Positions 28,069 through 35,263 of a stretch of 64,000 nucleotides of DNA are shown in pieces. A program made the position numbers and the translations under genes. Location: contig JAJECI010000003.1 in the NCBI GenBank assembly GCA_022822065.1, forward strand, positions 62,001 through 126,000, given 5' to 3'. Source of the DNA: Candidatus Dadabacteria bacterium. Its GTDB lineage: Bacteria > Desulfobacterota_D > UBA1144 > Nemesobacterales > Nemesobacteraceae. The notes under the pieces were generated by a model. It had not been told where the DNA came from, searched no databases, and saw nothing but the letters and a program-made list of their open reading frames with translations. Numbering within the stretch: position 1 is the first letter of the stretch; each line of letters starts with the position of its first letter.

Positions 28069-28602
28069 ATGTCGTTCAGAAATTTCTTATGGGCAACGCA
28101 CACAGTTTTTCTGATTATATTCAGCTTAGTAGCTTGTGGTGGTGAAAGCGACTATAACTATGACTACGACGATGCTTATTACGAAATCGAGGGCACAATC
28201 TTAACCATTGTGGACTCCCAGTCCTTTCTTCTGGGCGATATCCTGGTAATTCACGGTCCTTCAACCCGGTTCGGATCCGGCGACGCCGACGACCTAGCCG
28301 TTGGCAGACGCGTAGAGGTTGAAGGTACCAGAATAAGCTCGGGAACCGTAGTGGCCAGAGAAATTGAGTTTGAAGATTGGTACTACGACGATGCTCATTA
28401 CGAAATCGAGGGCACAATCTTAACCATTGTAGACTCCCAGTCCTTTCTTCTGGACGATATCCTGGTAATTCACGGTCCTTCAACCCGGTTCGAATACGGC
28501 GACGCCAGCGACCTAGCCGTTGGCAGACGCGTAGAGGTTGAAGGTACCAGAATAAGCTCGGGAACCGTCGTAGCCAGAGAAATTGAGTTTGAGTATTGGT
28601 AA
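28069..28602 (+). CDS. lipoprotein with two near-identical DUF5666-like repeats
   Basis: 177 residues: lipoprotein signal with lipobox VACG (Cys about 23), an acidic Tyr/Asp spacer, then two copies of a 73-residue unit (YEIEGTILTIVDSQSFLL, DILVIHGPSTRF, LAVGRRVEVEGTRISSGTVV, AREIEFE). The unit reads as a small OB/beta domain of the DUF5666 kind, usually exported and of unknown function. The two copies differ at only a few residues, so the duplication is recent or kept identical by gene conversion. Confidence 0.78.
   Translation: MSFRNFLWATHTVFLIIFSLVACGGESDYNYDYDDAYYEIEGTILTIVDSQSFLLGDILVIHGPSTRFGSGDADDLAVGRRVEVEGTRISSGTVVAREIEFEDWYYDDAHYEIEGTILTIVDSQSFLLDDILVIHGPSTRFEYGDASDLAVGRRVEVEGTRISSGTVVAREIEFEYW
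28165..28383 (+). repeat. 219-bp tandem repeat, copy 1
   Basis: First unit of the in-gene duplication, starting TACGACGATGCT. Copy 2 starts at 28384. Period 219 bases, exactly 73 codons. Confidence 0.85.
28384..28599 (+). repeat. 219-bp tandem repeat, copy 2 (last unit cut short by the stop)
   Basis: Second unit; differs from the first by scattered single bases (for example GGCGATATC versus GACGATATC, TTCGGATCC versus TTCGAATAC), mostly changing Gly/Asp or Gly/Glu residues. Confidence 0.85.
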
Positions 28603-28746
28603 TAAGACTAACTACTACGGGCAGAAATCATTCCACGGCTATTTTTCTCCATACTTTCTTGTATCTTTCTCAAATGACGATTCTGAAAAAAACATGTACT
28701 TTAGATAGACAGGTGTTTTCGCAATTAAGGTCTTCAGGGTAATAAA

Positions 28747-29304: not shown

Positions 29305-29347
29305 ACGTATGTTTGAACGAAACAACTGCAAATTCTCAATAACAATT

Positions 29348-30940
29348 ATGGCAAAAGTATCAAATGGAAAAGTAGGCAGAGAACAAGAACGAGCAGAATT
29401 GCACCGCACGATCTGGCAGATCGCCAACGATCTGCGCGGGAGTGTCGACGGTTGGGACTTTAAGCAATATGTGCTCGGGATGCTCTTCTACCGGTTCATC
29501 AGCGAGAACCTCACAAACTACATTAATGAAGAAGAGCGACGCACTGGAACTAAAGATTTTGATTACGCAACGCTTTCAGACAAAAAAGCTGAGTTCGGTC
29601 GAGATGACACAGTAAAAGAAAAAGGATTTTACATGCTCCCCAGCGAGTTGTTTGTGAATGTGGCAAAGAACGCACGCCACGACTCGGACTTGAACGAAAC
29701 GCTCGAGACTGTTTTCAACAATATTGAAAACTCTGCCAAAGGCACCGAGAGTGAGGACGACCTTAAGGGGTTGTTTGACGATATTGATGTCAACTCCGCC
29801 AAACTTGGCAATACCGTAGAAAATCGGAATCAGAAACTCACTAGGCTTCTTGAAGCTATCGGCGGGCTCCGTTTCGGCGATTATGCCGACAACTCCATTG
29901 ACGCTTTTGGTGATGCCTACGAGTTTCTGATGACCATGTACGCTTCAAACGCTGGAAAATCCGGTGGCGAGTTCTTCACGCCTCAGGAGGTCAGTGAGTT
30001 GCTTGCAGAAATTACTACCGTAGGCAAGAAAGAAGTGAATAAGGTCTACGACCCAGCTTGCGGTTCCGGTTCGCTACTACTCAAATTTGCCAAAGTCCTC
30101 GGCAAGGATAAGGTTCGGCAAGGTTTTTTTGGCCAGGAAAGCAACCTTACTACCTACAACCTCTGCCGTATCAATATGTTTTTGCACGATATCAACTACG
30201 AGAAGTTTGATATCGCACACGGCGATACACTTACTGATCCAAAGCATTGGGATGATGAACCGTTTGACGCAATCGTCTCCAATCCGCCCTATTCCATTAA
30301 ATGGGAAGGCAATGCGAATCCGATCCTCATCAACGACTCTCGCTTTTCTCCGGCTGGCGTGCTTGCGCCAAAGAGCAGAGCCGACCTTGCTTTCACAATG
30401 CACATGCTTTCATGGCTTTCCACGAGTGGCACTGCGGCTATTGTTGAGTTTCCGGGTGTACTCTACCGTGGCGGAGCTGAGCAAAAAATACGCAAGTATC
30501 TGGTGGAAAACAACTATATTGATACGGTTATTCAGCTTCCGCCTGACCTCTTTTTCGGAACCACTATTGCGACGTGCGTCATTGTGCTCAGAAAGAGCAA
30601 GAAGGACAATAAAACATTGTTCATTGATGCATCTGCTGAGTTCTTTCGTGGTGGCAACAAGAATACATTAAGTGAAGCAAACCGCGCTAAGATACTCGAC
30701 GCATTTACCAACCGTAAAGATATTGAACACTTTGCTGCTTTAGTTGACAACAAGATAATCTCTGAGAATGACTACAATATTGCTGTATCAAACTATGTTG
30801 AGGGCAAGGACACTCGTGAGGTGATAGACATTACTGAACTCAACAAGAAAATTGCGAAGATTGTTGTACGACAGCAAGAGTTGCGCGAGGCGATTGATGC
30901 TATTATCGGCGATATAGAAGGAGCAAATAGCAAGGAATAG
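29348..30940 (+). CDS. hsdM: type I restriction-modification system methyltransferase subunit
   Basis: N6-adenine methyltransferase subunit. 530 residues from ATG 29348 (MAKVSNGKVGREQERAELH); an upstream frame reaches 29309 but lacks support. N-terminal HsdM helical domain (LHRTIWQIANDLRGSVDGWD), SAM motif I VYDPACGSGSLLLKFA near residues 232-247, and catalytic motif IV SNPPYS near 310-315. With HsdS it forms the methylase (M2S), with HsdR the nuclease complex. All key motifs intact. Confidence 0.95.
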   Translation: MAKVSNGKVGREQERAELHRTIWQIANDLRGSVDGWDFKQYVLGMLFYRFISENLTNYINEEERRTGTKDFDYATLSDKKAEFGRDDTVKEKGFYMLPSELFVNVAKNARHDSDLNETLETVFNNIENSAKGTESEDDLKGLFDDIDVNSAKLGNTVENRNQKLTRLLEAIGGLRFGDYADNSIDAFGDAYEFLMTMYASNAGKSGGEFFTPQEVSELLAEITTVGKKEVNKVYDPACGSGSLLLKFAKVLGKDKVRQGFFGQESNLTTYNLCRINMFLHDINYEKFDIAHGDTLTDPKHWDDEPFDAIVSNPPYSIKWEGNANPILINDSRFSPAGVLAPKSRADLAFTMHMLSWLSTSGTAAIVEFPGVLYRGGAEQKIRKYLVENNYIDTVIQLPPDLFFGTTIATCVIVLRKSKKDNKTLFIDASAEFFRGGNKNTLSEANRAKILDAFTNRKDIEHFAALVDNKIISENDYNIAVSNYVEGKDTREVIDITELNKKIAKIVVRQQELREAIDAIIGDIEGANSKE

Positions 30941-30942
30941 TT

Positions 30943-32187
30943 ATGGTAAAACATATGAACAAAATTGAGAAATTGATCGCCGAACTATGTCCAAATGGTG
31001 TGGAATTTAAGGAACTTCAAGAAATATTTGACATTAAAAACGGTTACACCCCGTCAAAGAAAAATTCAGATTACTGGACGAATGGGACAATTCCTTGGTT
31101 TCGAATGGAGGATATACGCAAGAATGGTCGGACTCTTAGTGATTCTATTCAACACGTTACCCCACAGGCGGTTAAGGATGGTTATCTTTTTCCTGCAAAT
31201 TCAATCATTATCGCTACAACAGCAACCATTGGCGAGCATGCGTTGCTAACTGTTGATTCGCTAGCGAATCAACGGTTCACTTTTTTGAGTAAAAAAGTGA
31301 ACCGTTCTATTGACATGAAATTCATGTTCTATTACGGATATGTTTTAGGTGAGTGGTGTAGAAGCAACACTAACACTGCAAGCTTTGCCTCGGTAAACAT
31401 GAAAAAGTTTAAAAAATTTAAAATCCCCATTCCACCGCTTGCAATCCAAGAAGAGATCGTAAAGATCCTTGATACCTTTACAGAACTAGAGGCAGAACTA
31501 GAGGCAGAACTAGAGGCAGAACTAGAGGCAAGAAAGAAACAGTATGAGTATTATCGCAATGAACTATTGACGTTTAATCGGGGGGGGGGGAGGAGTATAG
31601 CGTTAGGGGAGATAGGGACCATGGTTAGAGGAAGTGGATTACAGAAAAAAGACTTTGTGGAGAGTGGTGTTGGTTGCATTCATTACGGTCAGATTTACAC
31701 CTATTATGGGACTTTTGCCGATAAAACAAAATCGTTTGTATCAAAAGAGCTAGCCAACAAGTTGAAGGAGGTTGAAAAAGGAGATTTGGTTATTGCCACT
31801 ACCAGTGAGAACGTTCAAGATGTCTGCAAAGCGGTTGCTTGGCTTGGAGAACAGGAGATTGTTGCTGGTGGAGACTTAGCGATTTTCAAACATAATGAGA
31901 ACCCCAAATATTTAGCATATTATTTTCAGACACCAAGCTTTGCGGATCAAAAAAGAAAGTATGCTAAAGGAACAAAAGTTATTAGAGTGTATGCGAAAGA
32001 TTTGGCAAAAATCAAAATCCCCATCCCACCGCTTGCTGAACAGAAACGCATTGTTTCCATCCTTGATAAATTTGAAGCGCTCGTAAACGACATTTCCATC
32101 GGTTTACCCGCCGAACTTGCCGCACGACGAAAGCAGTATGAATACTATCGCGGCAGGCTTTTAACATTCAATGAATATGTCAGTTAA
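30943..32187 (+). CDS. hsdS: type I restriction-modification specificity subunit, probably phase-variable
   Basis: 414 residues in two homologous halves, each a target-recognition domain plus a conserved coiled-coil: half 1 about 1-212, ending ARKKQYEYYRNELLTF; half 2 about 227-414, ending ARRKQYEYYRGRLLTF. Both carry KIPIPPLA. Each half should read one half-site. The central linker has four ELEA repeats (31483-31530). Between the halves an uninterrupted run of 11 Gs (31580-31590) encodes NRGGGRS. The sequenced length is in frame (full-length 'on'). Losing one G gives a stop after 218 residues; gaining one gives a stop after 228. A second ATG with AGGGGAG lies at 31621. Start at 30943 is supported by AAGGA six bases upstream. 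Confidence 0.93.
   Translation: MVKHMNKIEKLIAELCPNGVEFKELQEIFDIKNGYTPSKKNSDYWTNGTIPWFRMEDIRKNGRTLSDSIQHVTPQAVKDGYLFPANSIIIATTATIGEHALLTVDSLANQRFTFLSKKVNRSIDMKFMFYYGYVLGEWCRSNTNTASFASVNMKKFKKFKIPIPPLAIQEEIVKILDTFTELEAELEAELEAELEARKKQYEYYRNELLTFNRGGGRSIALGEIGTMVRGSGLQKKDFVESGVGCIHYGQIYTYYGTFADKTKSFVSKELANKLKEVEKGDLVIATTSENVQDVCKAVAWLGEQEIVAGGDLAIFKHNENPKYLAYYFQTPSFADQKRKYAKGTKVIRVYAKDLAKIKIPIPPLAEQKRIVSILDKFEALVNDISIGLPAELAARRKQYEYYRGRLLTFNEYVS
31252..31273. repeat. perfect 22-bp palindrome inside hsdS
   Basis: GTTGATTCG, central CTAG, CGAATCAAC: the whole 22 bases equal their own reverse complement. It lies in the first target-recognition half. Confidence 0.9.
31271..31306. repeat. perfect 16-bp inverted repeat with 4-base loop inside hsdS
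   Basis: AACGGTTCACTTTTTT (31271-31286), loop GAGT, AAAAAAGTGAACCGTT (31291-31306). All 16 pairs are perfect. It overlaps the end of the preceding palindrome by three bases, so the two form neighbouring hairpins in coding sequence. Confidence 0.92.
31483..31530 (+). repeat. four tandem 12-bp repeats in the hsdS central linker
   Basis: GAACTAGAGGCA occurs four times without a mismatch, encoding ELEA x4 in the helix that separates the two recognition domains. The unit is a multiple of three, so copy-number change would not shift the frame. Confidence 0.95.
31580..31590 (+). repeat. 11-G homopolymer tract in hsdS
   Basis: Eleven consecutive G residues in the coding strand, between the two half-subunits. 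Length change alters the reading frame (see hsdS entry). Confidence 0.95.
31605..31623 (+). promoter_or_regulatory. internal ribosome binding site and ATG for the second HsdS half
   Basis: AGGGGAG (31605-31611) is followed after nine bases by an in-frame ATG at 31621 (MVRGSGLQ). Translation from here would give a 188-residue C-terminal half-subunit. Confidence 0.5.
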
Positions 32188-35100
32188 CAATAAGTACAAT
32201 TTGGTAGTGGAGAATCCGCAGAGTACAGTCGTAGCGGAATATTCGCCGGAGAGAAGCCGCGCTGAGCAGTATCAAAGCGAGGCGGATCTTGAAAGCGCAT
32301 TTATTGAACAACTTGAATCCCAAGCGTACGAGTATCTGCCGATCACAGATGAAACCGATCTGATCGTAAACTTACGTACACAACTCGAGAAACTCAATGA
32401 CTACAATTTCAGCGACAGTGAATGGAAACGATTCTTTATGGATGAGTTGGCAAACTCTAACCAGAGCATTGAAGAAAAAACTGCAACAATCCAGGAAGAT
32501 TACATCAAAAACCTCACTCGTGACGATGGCTCAGTTAAAAACATCTACCTTCTCCGCAAGGACAACATTCACGACAATACGTTGCAAGTCATCAACCAGT
32601 ACTCAACCGACGAGGGTCAACGCGCAAATCGCTATGACGTAACCGTGCTGGTGAACGGATTGCCTCTGGTGCACATTGAACTCAAGCGTCGTGGCGTCGC
32701 TATTAAAGAAGCATTCAATCAGATCAACCGTTACCAGCGCGAGAGTTTCTGGGCTGCGTCGGGACTGTATGAATATGTCCAGCTCTTTGTTATTTCAAAT
32801 GGCACGCATACTAAGTATTACAGCAATACGACGCGCTCTCAGCACATCAAGGAAGCTAATGAGAGAGGAGTTAAGCGGGGCAAGCGTTCAAGCAATAGCT
32901 TTGAGTTTACGAGTTGGTGGGCGGATGCAACCAACAAGCCAATTACTGATTTAATGAATTTTGCGAAGACATTTTTTGCCAAGCACGCACTCTTGAACAT
33001 TTTGACCCGCTATTGTGTTTTCACGACCGACCGCCAACTCCTCGTGATGCGTCCATATCAGATTGTTGCAACTGAGCGGATATTGAACCGTATTGAAGTG
33101 AGTACAAATTATAAAAAACTCGGAAGTCTGGAGGCTGGTGGATACATCTGGCACACGACCGGATCGGGCAAGACGCTCACAAGTTTCAAAACGGCGCAAC
33201 TTGCGAGCAAGTTGCCGTATGTAGACAAAGTGCTGTTCGTGGTAGACCGAAAGGACTTGGACTATCAGACAATGAAGGAATATGACAAGTTCGAGAAGGG
33301 TGCTGCCAACAGCAATACCAGCACGAAAATTCTAAAGCGGCAACTCGAAGATCCGAACTCACGCATCATTATCACAACGATTCAGAAACTTGATCGATTC
33401 GTCGGGCGTAATAGAGGTCACACGATCTTTGAATGTCATGTGGCGCTCATTTTCGACGAATGCCATCGGTCGCAATTTGGTGATATGCACATAGCGATCA
33501 CTAGGGCGTTTAAGCAATATCATCTCTTTGGCTTTACCGGCACGCCGATTTTTGCGGTAAACGCTTCTTCTAGTAGCCGTGCTGACCTTAAGACTACCGA
33601 ACAAGCGTTTGGGGATAGATTACACTCGTACACTATCGTAGATGCGATTGCAGATAGAAATGTTCTGCCTTTCAAGGTCGATTATGTCTCAACGGTTCGT
33701 GAAGCGGAAGATATTGAGGATAAGAAAGTAAGCGATATTGACCGCGAGGCCGCGCTTGCTTCGCATGATCGTCTGGCGAATATTGTGGGTTATATTCGAG
33801 AACATTTTGATCAGAAGACCAAGCGAAACAGTTCATACAAGCTTAAAGACCGAAGACTTGCCGGGTTCAATTCAATTTTTACTGTTTCTTCGATTGAAGT
33901 AGCCAAAAAATATTATGCCGAGTTTAAGAAGCAGCTCGCAGACGTACCAAGCGACAAAAAGCTTAAAGTGGCATTGATCTACAGTTTTGGCGTAAACGAA
34001 GAGGATGTAGATGGGATGGTAGACGAGAACTCAGAGGATACGAGTGGACTTGATAAAAGTTCGCGGGATTTTCTTGAGAATGCCATCGCTGACTATAATG
34101 CGATGTTCGGAACATCCTATGGTACGTCTTCTGACAGGTTTCAGAATTACTACAAGGACGTAAGCGAGCGAGTAAAAAACCGAGAGATCGATATTCTCAT
34201 TGTAGTAAATATGTTTTTGACCGGATTTGATGCGACCACGCTCAATACTTTGTGGGTTGATAAAAACCTGCGATTACATGGACTGCTGCAAGCGTATTCG
34301 CGTACTAACCGCATTCTCAACAGCGTCAAAACCTTCGGGAATATCGTGTGTTTCCGAAACTTAGAGGAAGCGACAAACAAATCAATCGCCCTTTTTGGAG
34401 ACAAGGAAGCAAGAGGTATTGTCCTCCTGAAGGCATACGATGATTACTACAACGGATACAAAGATGGCGAGAAGGAAGTACGCGGCTACAAGAGTCTGGT
34501 TGAGGAGCTTCAGGATAAATTCCCTGTTGGCGAGCGTATCTTGGGAGAACAGAACCAGAGAGACTTTATCAAGCTCTATGGCGATATATTGCGCGTACAG
34601 AACATCTTGGTGACTTTCGATGAATTTGCCGGCAACGAAATACTCTCAGCCCGTGACCTGCAAGACTACCACAGCATGTACATAGACCTGTACAACGAAT
34701 TTCGCGGAGGCACTGAAAGCGAGAAAGAAAACATTAACGACGACTTGGTCTTTGAGATGGAACTTATCAAGCAGATAGAGATCAATATTGACTACATACT
34801 AGGGCTTATCAAAAAGTACCATGAAAATCACATCAAGGACCGAGAACTGCTGATTGATATTAAAAAGGCGATCAATTCAAGCGTTGAACTTCGGAATAAG
34901 AAAGACCTCATTGATCAGTTCATTGCAACACTTGATGTTCACTCTGTAGTAGATGATGACTGGCAGAAGTTTGTTGAAAAGAAAAAAATTGAAGAACTTG
35001 AGGATATCATTAAAAGCGAGGGACTGAATCATGACGAAGCATACGCATTTGTACGAAATGCATTCCGCGATGGAAATATTGCCACGACCGGTACAGCGAT

Positions 35101-35263
35101 CGCAAAGGTTTTGCCTCCGGTGTCTCGCTTCTCTCCGGGTGGTGAACGTACCCAGAAGCGAGAGAGTGTTCTCTCCAAACTGACGAACTTCTTTGATCGA
35201 TTCTTTGATATTTCCAAGAAGGAATTTGTTGTTCTTCATGAACAAAGTTATCCCTATCAATGA
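32171..35263 (+). CDS. hsdR: type I restriction enzyme, endonuclease/translocase subunit
   Basis: 1030 residues. N-terminal PD-(D/E)xK nuclease with HIELKRRGVAIKEAFNQINR near 167-187; then SF2 translocase: Walker A TTGSGKT near 328-334, DECHRS (DEAD-box variant) near 429-434, FGFTGTPIF, and the motif VI-like QAYSRTNRIL near 706-715. A helical C-terminal region contacts HsdM. The ATG at 32171 overlaps the hsdS end by 17 bases (ATG at 32177 is the alternative), so translation is coupled. No frameshift or motif loss is visible, so the restriction activity looks intact. Confidence 0.95.
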   Translation: MNMSVNNKYNLVVENPQSTVVAEYSPERSRAEQYQSEADLESAFIEQLESQAYEYLPITDETDLIVNLRTQLEKLNDYNFSDSEWKRFFMDELANSNQSIEEKTATIQEDYIKNLTRDDGSVKNIYLLRKDNIHDNTLQVINQYSTDEGQRANRYDVTVLVNGLPLVHIELKRRGVAIKEAFNQINRYQRESFWAASGLYEYVQLFVISNGTHTKYYSNTTRSQHIKEANERGVKRGKRSSNSFEFTSWWADATNKPITDLMNFAKTFFAKHALLNILTRYCVFTTDRQLLVMRPYQIVATERILNRIEVSTNYKKLGSLEAGGYIWHTTGSGKTLTSFKTAQLASKLPYVDKVLFVVDRKDLDYQTMKEYDKFEKGAANSNTSTKILKRQLEDPNSRIIITTIQKLDRFVGRNRGHTIFECHVALIFDECHRSQFGDMHIAITRAFKQYHLFGFTGTPIFAVNASSSSRADLKTTEQAFGDRLHSYTIVDAIADRNVLPFKVDYVSTVREAEDIEDKKVSDIDREAALASHDRLANIVGYIREHFDQKTKRNSSYKLKDRRLAGFNSIFTVSSIEVAKKYYAEFKKQLADVPSDKKLKVALIYSFGVNEEDVDGMVDENSEDTSGLDKSSRDFLENAIADYNAMFGTSYGTSSDRFQNYYKDVSERVKNREIDILIVVNMFLTGFDATTLNTLWVDKNLRLHGLLQAYSRTNRILNSVKTFGNIVCFRNLEEATNKSIALFGDKEARGIVLLKAYDDYYNGYKDGEKEVRGYKSLVEELQDKFPVGERILGEQNQRDFIKLYGDILRVQNILVTFDEFAGNEILSARDLQDYHSMYIDLYNEFRGGTESEKENINDDLVFEMELIKQIEINIDYILGLIKKYHENHIKDRELLIDIKKAINSSVELRNKKDLIDQFIATLDVHSVVDDDWQKFVEKKKIEELEDIIKSEGLNHDEAYAFVRNAFRDGNIATTGTAIAKVLPPVSRFSPGGERTQKRESVLSKLTNFFDRFFDISKKEFVVLHEQSYPYQ

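Follow-up and report, generated by a model that had tools for sequence, protein, structure and literature searches.

We propose that the type I restriction-modification system encoded within the analysed stretch of a Candidatus Dadabacteria genome (64,000 nucleotides; hereafter, the window) is very probably phase-variable and follows the design of NgoAV, whereby a poly-G tract would toggle the specificity subunit HsdS between a fused form and a half-subunit and a neighboring tandem repeat would tune the gap between the half-sites. The mechanism as such is already known; as far as can be judged from sequence, the novelty lies in the lineage, with a two-element hinge that appears alongside other unstable tracts in one genome. 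The hsdM, hsdS and hsdR genes are adjacent and form a complete type I restriction-modification operon in which the start of hsdR overlaps the end of hsdS. The features of this locus are the following:

29309..30940, + strand: hsdM, type I methyltransferase subunit, 543 aa (PF02384 and HsdM_N; TIGR00497 hsdM above cut-off)
30943..32187, + strand: hsdS, specificity subunit, 414 aa at 11 G (PF01420, two stretches)
30991..31437, + strand: first target recognition domain, TRD1 (comparison with the congeneric ortholog)
31438..31572, + strand: central conserved region, first dimerisation/spacer helix, residues 166-210 (AlphaFold2 model, pLDDT ~81-93 there; conserved columns)
31481..31530, + strand: 12-bp tandem repeat, 4 perfect units of GAACTAGAGGCA, encoding Glu-Leu-Glu-Ala, candidate spacer-length switch (TRF, 4.2 copies, 100% match)
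31580..31590, + strand: G11 tract, putative switch of the reading frame (fused HsdS or N-terminal half-subunit; sequence)
31591..32022, + strand: second target recognition domain, TRD2, family GSGLQKKDF...CIHYGQIYTYYGTF (alignment)
31598..31600, + strand: TAG ending HsdS at 218 aa with 10 G (in-silico frames)
31621..31623, + strand: in-frame ATG (Met227), possible restart of the second half (sequence)
31626..31628, + strand: TAG ending HsdS at 228 aa with 12 G (in-silico frames)
32032..32160, + strand: C-terminal dimerisation helix, residues 364-406, near-repeat of the central helix (RKQYEYYR..LLTF; model, alignment)
32171..35263, + strand: hsdR, restriction/translocase subunit, 1030 aa (HSDR_N, SWI2_SNF2, EcoR124_C; TIGR00348)

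The identification of hsdS as a type I specificity gene in the initial annotation is borne out by the profile search (E = 1.8e-53 against PF01420) and by the hsdM and hsdR genes next to it. The nearest solved structures by sequence are the S subunits 1yf2 and EcoR124II 7bst. An AlphaFold2 model built from 23 sequences (HsdS itself and 22 tract-bearing relatives; mean pLDDT 85, pTM 0.62) shows, in this order, TRD1, a 45-residue helix (166-210), a loop (211-216), TRD2 with its first strand at 217-220, and the helix 364-406. The fold was confirmed by Foldseek (best E 5e-23), with little gained over sequence comparison; the TM-scores were mostly 0.4-0.7, and the relative placement of the domains is uncertain at this pTM. 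By its sequence features, namely the EcoR124_C domain in HsdR, the tetrapeptide spacer repeats and the QYEYYR..LLxF motif in both helices, the system can be assigned to the type IC-like (EcoR124) branch. A single hsdS match is present in the genome, with no second silent or inverted copy, which rules out an inverting hsdS (shufflon).

The 11 G's at 31580-31590 on the coding strand of hsdS were reported in the initial annotation and are indeed present in the sequence, where they constitute the sole G or C run of at least 7 in the window. They encode part of R213 and the whole of G214, G215 and G216, and these codons fall in the predicted loop of the AlphaFold2 model, preceded by the helix 166-210 and followed by the TRD2 strand 217-220, in agreement with the claim that the tract lies exactly between the two halves of HsdS. 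In-silico translation also reproduced the products given for each tract length (414 aa at 11 G, 218 aa at 10 G and 228 aa at 12 G); the reading frame is kept at 8, 11 and 14 G, and a change of one G would convert the fused HsdS into a half-subunit or back, as in NgoAV. Given that the 12-G stop (31626-31628) is located just 3' of the in-frame ATG (31621-31623), coupled reinitiation of the second half is conceivable. Furthermore, given the overlap between hsdS and hsdR, the off-frame states may also reduce the amount of HsdR.

The second element, absent from the initial annotation, is the 12-bp repeat located 50 bp upstream of the G11 tract, inside the first spacer helix. It encodes four copies of ELEA in a position equivalent to that of the TAEL repeats of EcoR124I/II. 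In the ortholog from a congeneric species, there are 3 perfect units of a differing sequence, GAGCTAGAAGCA, so that the repeat number upstream of the tract varies (4 vs 3 units), again as in NgoAV. The units are identical within each species and differ between the two species in 2 of the 12 positions, the signature expected of an array that has been repeatedly contracted and re-expanded. Another tandem duplication in the window (28163-28608) consists of two 219-bp units (94% match) within the gene for a 177-aa exported protein (28069-28602) and represents a recent domain duplication.

The ortholog comes from a Candidatus Dadabacteria metagenome-assembled genome (MAG) of the same genus (CAR2_bin_20, hereafter G009; contig JAPOSJ010000227.1), in which the operon occupies the same genomic site, with the same flanking genes and an hsdM that is ~90-92% identical. 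G009 was the only genome in which another ortholog was found within the genus and the family, and in the phylum-level set this HsdS is clearly present in just two genomes, so that the comparison between species depends on a single ortholog. With regard to the question whether related genomes lack the tract, this ortholog keeps it, with 9 G compared to 11 G here, i.e., in two species of one genus the tract differs in length while its flanks align normally; as assembled, the G009 hsdS is out of frame, which corresponds to the half-subunit frame. The recognition domains appear to be mobile. TRD1 (30991-31437) recurs, with 89% identity, at the second position of the G009 HsdS, the other domains being different, which implies that the recognition domains have changed position. 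No counterpart of TRD2 was found in the G009 ortholog; in other species, TRD2-related domains are located at position 1 or 2. The hsdM gene of the G009 operon (L057, G009:C184) carries its own frame-breaking G9 tract, whereas the hsdM of the genome under study has ordinary sequence at that place. Two further G009 genes contain G9 tracts that are frame-breaking as assembled, the hsdM of a second type I system (L059:2933) and a methylase/specificity-like gene (L060:2180).

We propose the following mechanism. Slipped-strand mispairing in the hsdS tract would add or remove G's. At 8, 11 or 14 G, both recognition domains would be fused, yielding an M2S enzyme with an asymmetric bipartite target. 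At other lengths, HsdS would stop right past the first spacer helix, leaving a half-subunit that consists of TRD1 and the helix; most likely, this half-subunit would pair with itself and guide HsdM to a palindromic site composed of two TRD1 half-sites. Independently of the tract, gain or loss of a 12-bp unit would shift the distance between the half-sites by ~1 bp. The sequenced state is the fused HsdS with four repeat units.

To place these observations in a broader context, one genome per species, from ~85,000 species, was scanned for C9 beside the reverse complement of the YYR..LLxF helix end. The scan retrieved 81 stretches, nearly all of which are type I hsdS genes with a tract at the same hinge (4 sites are not HsdS); given the requirement for at least 9 G, it gives no fraction of hsdS genes that bear tracts. 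Judging by record titles, the hosts span about a dozen phyla and include Neisseria, Haemophilus, Campylobacter, Treponema, Bacteroidota, Bacillota and Saccharibacteria as well as an archaeon (Candidatus Methanoplasma). A fusable second half is present at 73 sites; as sequenced, 41 of them have the fused frame and the other 32 are in the half state, and 48 also have a tetrapeptide repeat in at least two exact copies. In a comparison set from viral contigs, which was not chosen for G runs, the run is 5 or shorter at 57 of the 60 hinge sites, most of which lack Gly-Gly. The tetrapeptide repeats are found in both sets and are typical of this branch as a whole. Off-frame stops lie within 6 codons in 69% of the cases with a tract vs 20% in the tract-free relatives, with median distances of 3.3 and 14.5 codons, respectively (Mann-Whitney p ~1e-13, which is indicative only because the sequences are not phylogenetically independent). 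That both off-frames terminate so early suggests that a clean half-subunit has been selected for. Together with the different tract length in the ortholog, the early stops in tract-bearing relatives support the interpretation of this HsdS as putatively phase-variable. A more elaborate arrangement was observed in two Flavobacteriaceae MAGs, with an hsdS that carries three G9-10 tracts in series in one (L120, CAR1_bin_5) and at least two in the other (L122, CAR3_bin_11). Each tract follows a recognition half, resulting in chains of about four recognition domains, and several tracts at once would decide how these domains are linked; these loci are possibly combinatorial specificity arrays, of which we encountered no description in the literature examined.

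The G11 tract of hsdS is not the only long run in this genome. Pattern searches of the whole assembly (1.63 Mb) identified 48 G/C runs of length 7, none of length 8-9, two of length 10 and five of length 11, compared to a geometric-tail expectation of 12-19 runs of 8-9 and 0.5-1.9 runs of at least 10. The gap at 8-9 combined with the excess at 10-11 indicates that the long tracts form a separate, maintained class, and this bimodal distribution rules out a chance homopolymer. Three of the seven runs of 10-11 are located just inside genes for secreted proteins. Two genes for signal-peptide proteins contain a C11 tract shortly past the start codon, by 21 bases in L198 (9770-9780; C10:161769 of the genome) and by 63 bases in L199 (10991-11001; C10:248990), the latter protein containing SWM_repeat and Big_5 domains. 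Both are out of frame at 11 C and would be open at 10 C for 542 and 669 aa, respectively. Members of the same family in two other genomes, G011 (L201 and L210) and G003 (L213), carry a C9 tract in the same place, so that in each of these five genes a change of one C (11 to 10 or 9 to 10) would give the open length. Another C11 tract (L194) follows a leader of the same kind but belongs to a short frame. A G10 run between TTGAAA and TAAGGT (L197:4795-4804; C8:151794) resembles a phase switch that acts on a promoter spacer; it lies ~90 bp upstream of the gene for an exported Calx-beta protein of 1239 aa. Another G10 run (L195:4722-4731; C4:38721) is found upstream of the gene for a lipoprotein-like Cu/Zn superoxide dismutase, and a C11 run (L196:5903-5913; C8:106902) separates the end of fabF from a hipA-like gene that is convergent with it.

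This set of poly-G/C loci makes phase variation in the genus likely and strengthens the phase-variation interpretation of the hsdS tract. The initial annotation spoke of a lineage without known phase variation; with respect to published work this is accurate, in that a literature search for phase variation and Dadabacteria together found no report, but the loci described above indicate that the lineage itself very probably phase-varies. On balance, we favor the possibility that this uncultivated genus of Dadabacteria has a genome-wide poly-G/C contingency programme that comprises the two-element hsdS switch (and the hsdM tract in the sister species), frame tracts in secreted-protein genes and tracts upstream of genes for other exported proteins. 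If this is the case, methylome and surface would diversify jointly in a bacterium that is environmental or associated with a host and does not belong to the classical pathogens.

Several other explanations of the tract have to be weighed against phase-variable specificity. Slippage could be real but produce an on/off switch only, with an inactive 218-228 aa half-subunit, so that off-frame cells would lose both methylation and restriction. Consistent with this possibility, many gonococcal strains are predicted to lack an active NgoAV enzyme (PMC9577141), and in G009 the frame-broken hsdM would leave the cell fully off regardless of the state of hsdS. Nevertheless, we regard it as rather unlikely given that the half-subunits of NgoAV, EcoR124I and EcoDXXI are active (PMC9577141, PMC6789123, PMC3874165) and that, in many species, both off-frames stop soon past the helix, as would be expected under selection for a clean half-subunit. 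Alternatively, the G run might be an invariant, inert linker in which GGG codons provide a flexible hinge, and it does encode Gly-Gly-Gly in a predicted loop. This appears very improbable because the tract-free relatives mostly maintain a continuous fused frame without Gly-Gly (e.g., LLSFKEGEVEWKTLG), nearly half of the fusable tract-bearing sites (32/73) are out of frame, and the genome lacks runs of 8-9 but has seven of 10-11.

The tract length might also be a sequencing or assembly artefact, given that the source is a MAG and that sister assemblies do contain poly-G artefacts, such as a 51-base run that ends contig C1 of G001. The full-length frame at 11 G, the recurrence of the hinge position in many independent species and the normal alignment of the flanks with the ortholog leave this explanation hardly credible, and even a tract length that is off by one, as could arise in metagenome assembly, is unlikely considering the intact frame at 11 G. 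Finally, RNA polymerase or the ribosome might slip on the tract so that one DNA sequence would yield both full-length and half HsdS. Long homopolymers are able to slip at the RNA level, and this general property is what the explanation draws on; tract lengths and frames differ among relatives in the DNA itself, which points to DNA-level change, and the characterized poly-G switching in hsdS occurs at the DNA level (PMC9577141), so that we assign this possibility next to no likelihood.

Under the phase-variation interpretation, a switch characterized in a human pathogen would extend to an uncultivated lineage, and the tracts at the same hinge in about a dozen phyla imply that the two-element design of hsdS is widespread rather than a Neisseria curiosity. 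In metagenomes, one would then expect both the length of the G tract and the methylation motif to occur in several forms within one population. With respect to phage defence, restriction targets would drift randomly between sister cells. For the annotation of MAGs, the implication is that many such loci resemble broken genes but are probably switch states.

Among the known systems, inverting or shuffling hsdS loci (PMC7394358) similarly alter type I specificity but require a second hsdS copy, in contrast to the single matching hsdS here. Simple sequence repeats have been identified in 7.9% of the hsdS genes in REBASE (Atack et al. 2020, to the extent cited in PMC9577141), and, as far as this citation goes, these phase-variable genes share with the present one slipped-strand repeats within hsdS. 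The type IC systems EcoR124I, EcoR124II and EcoDXXI resemble the present system in the 12-bp repeat within the first spacer helix and in the EcoR124_C domain, found here in HsdR. In EcoR124I/II, the spacer measures 6 or 7 bp (N6/N7) depending on the repeat number, and truncated half-subunits of EcoR124I and EcoDXXI, which arose by deletion or transposon insertion, dimerise and function (PMC3874165); unlike the system described here, these have no described poly-G switch.

The closest precedent is NgoAV, which was already invoked in the initial annotation, and the tract indeed corresponds to the site of the phase-variable poly-G in that system (PMC9577141, PMC6789123). Both loci have the order hsdM-hsdS-hsdR, with poly-G directly after the first spacer helix, between the HsdS halves; the truncated forms are of similar size (208 aa in NgoAV and 218-228 aa here); and a variable tetrapeptide repeat is located just upstream, in the spacer helix (0-3 copies of LEAT in NgoAV and four of ELEA here). 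In NgoAV, PacBio sequencing has linked the specificities to the state of the repeat and the poly-G, the fused protein recognizing GACN6TGC with one LEAT unit and GACN7TGC with two, and the truncated protein with two units recognizing GCAN8TGC (PMC6789123). The product of the downstream hsdS2 is inactive in that system, and the tract varies between 6 and 9 G among 92 strains (PMC9577141). The system described here differs in its dadabacterial host, in its tract of 11 G compared to 6-9 G in the gonococcus, in having been sequenced in the fused state, and in the presence of a G tract also in the orthologous hsdM of the sister species.
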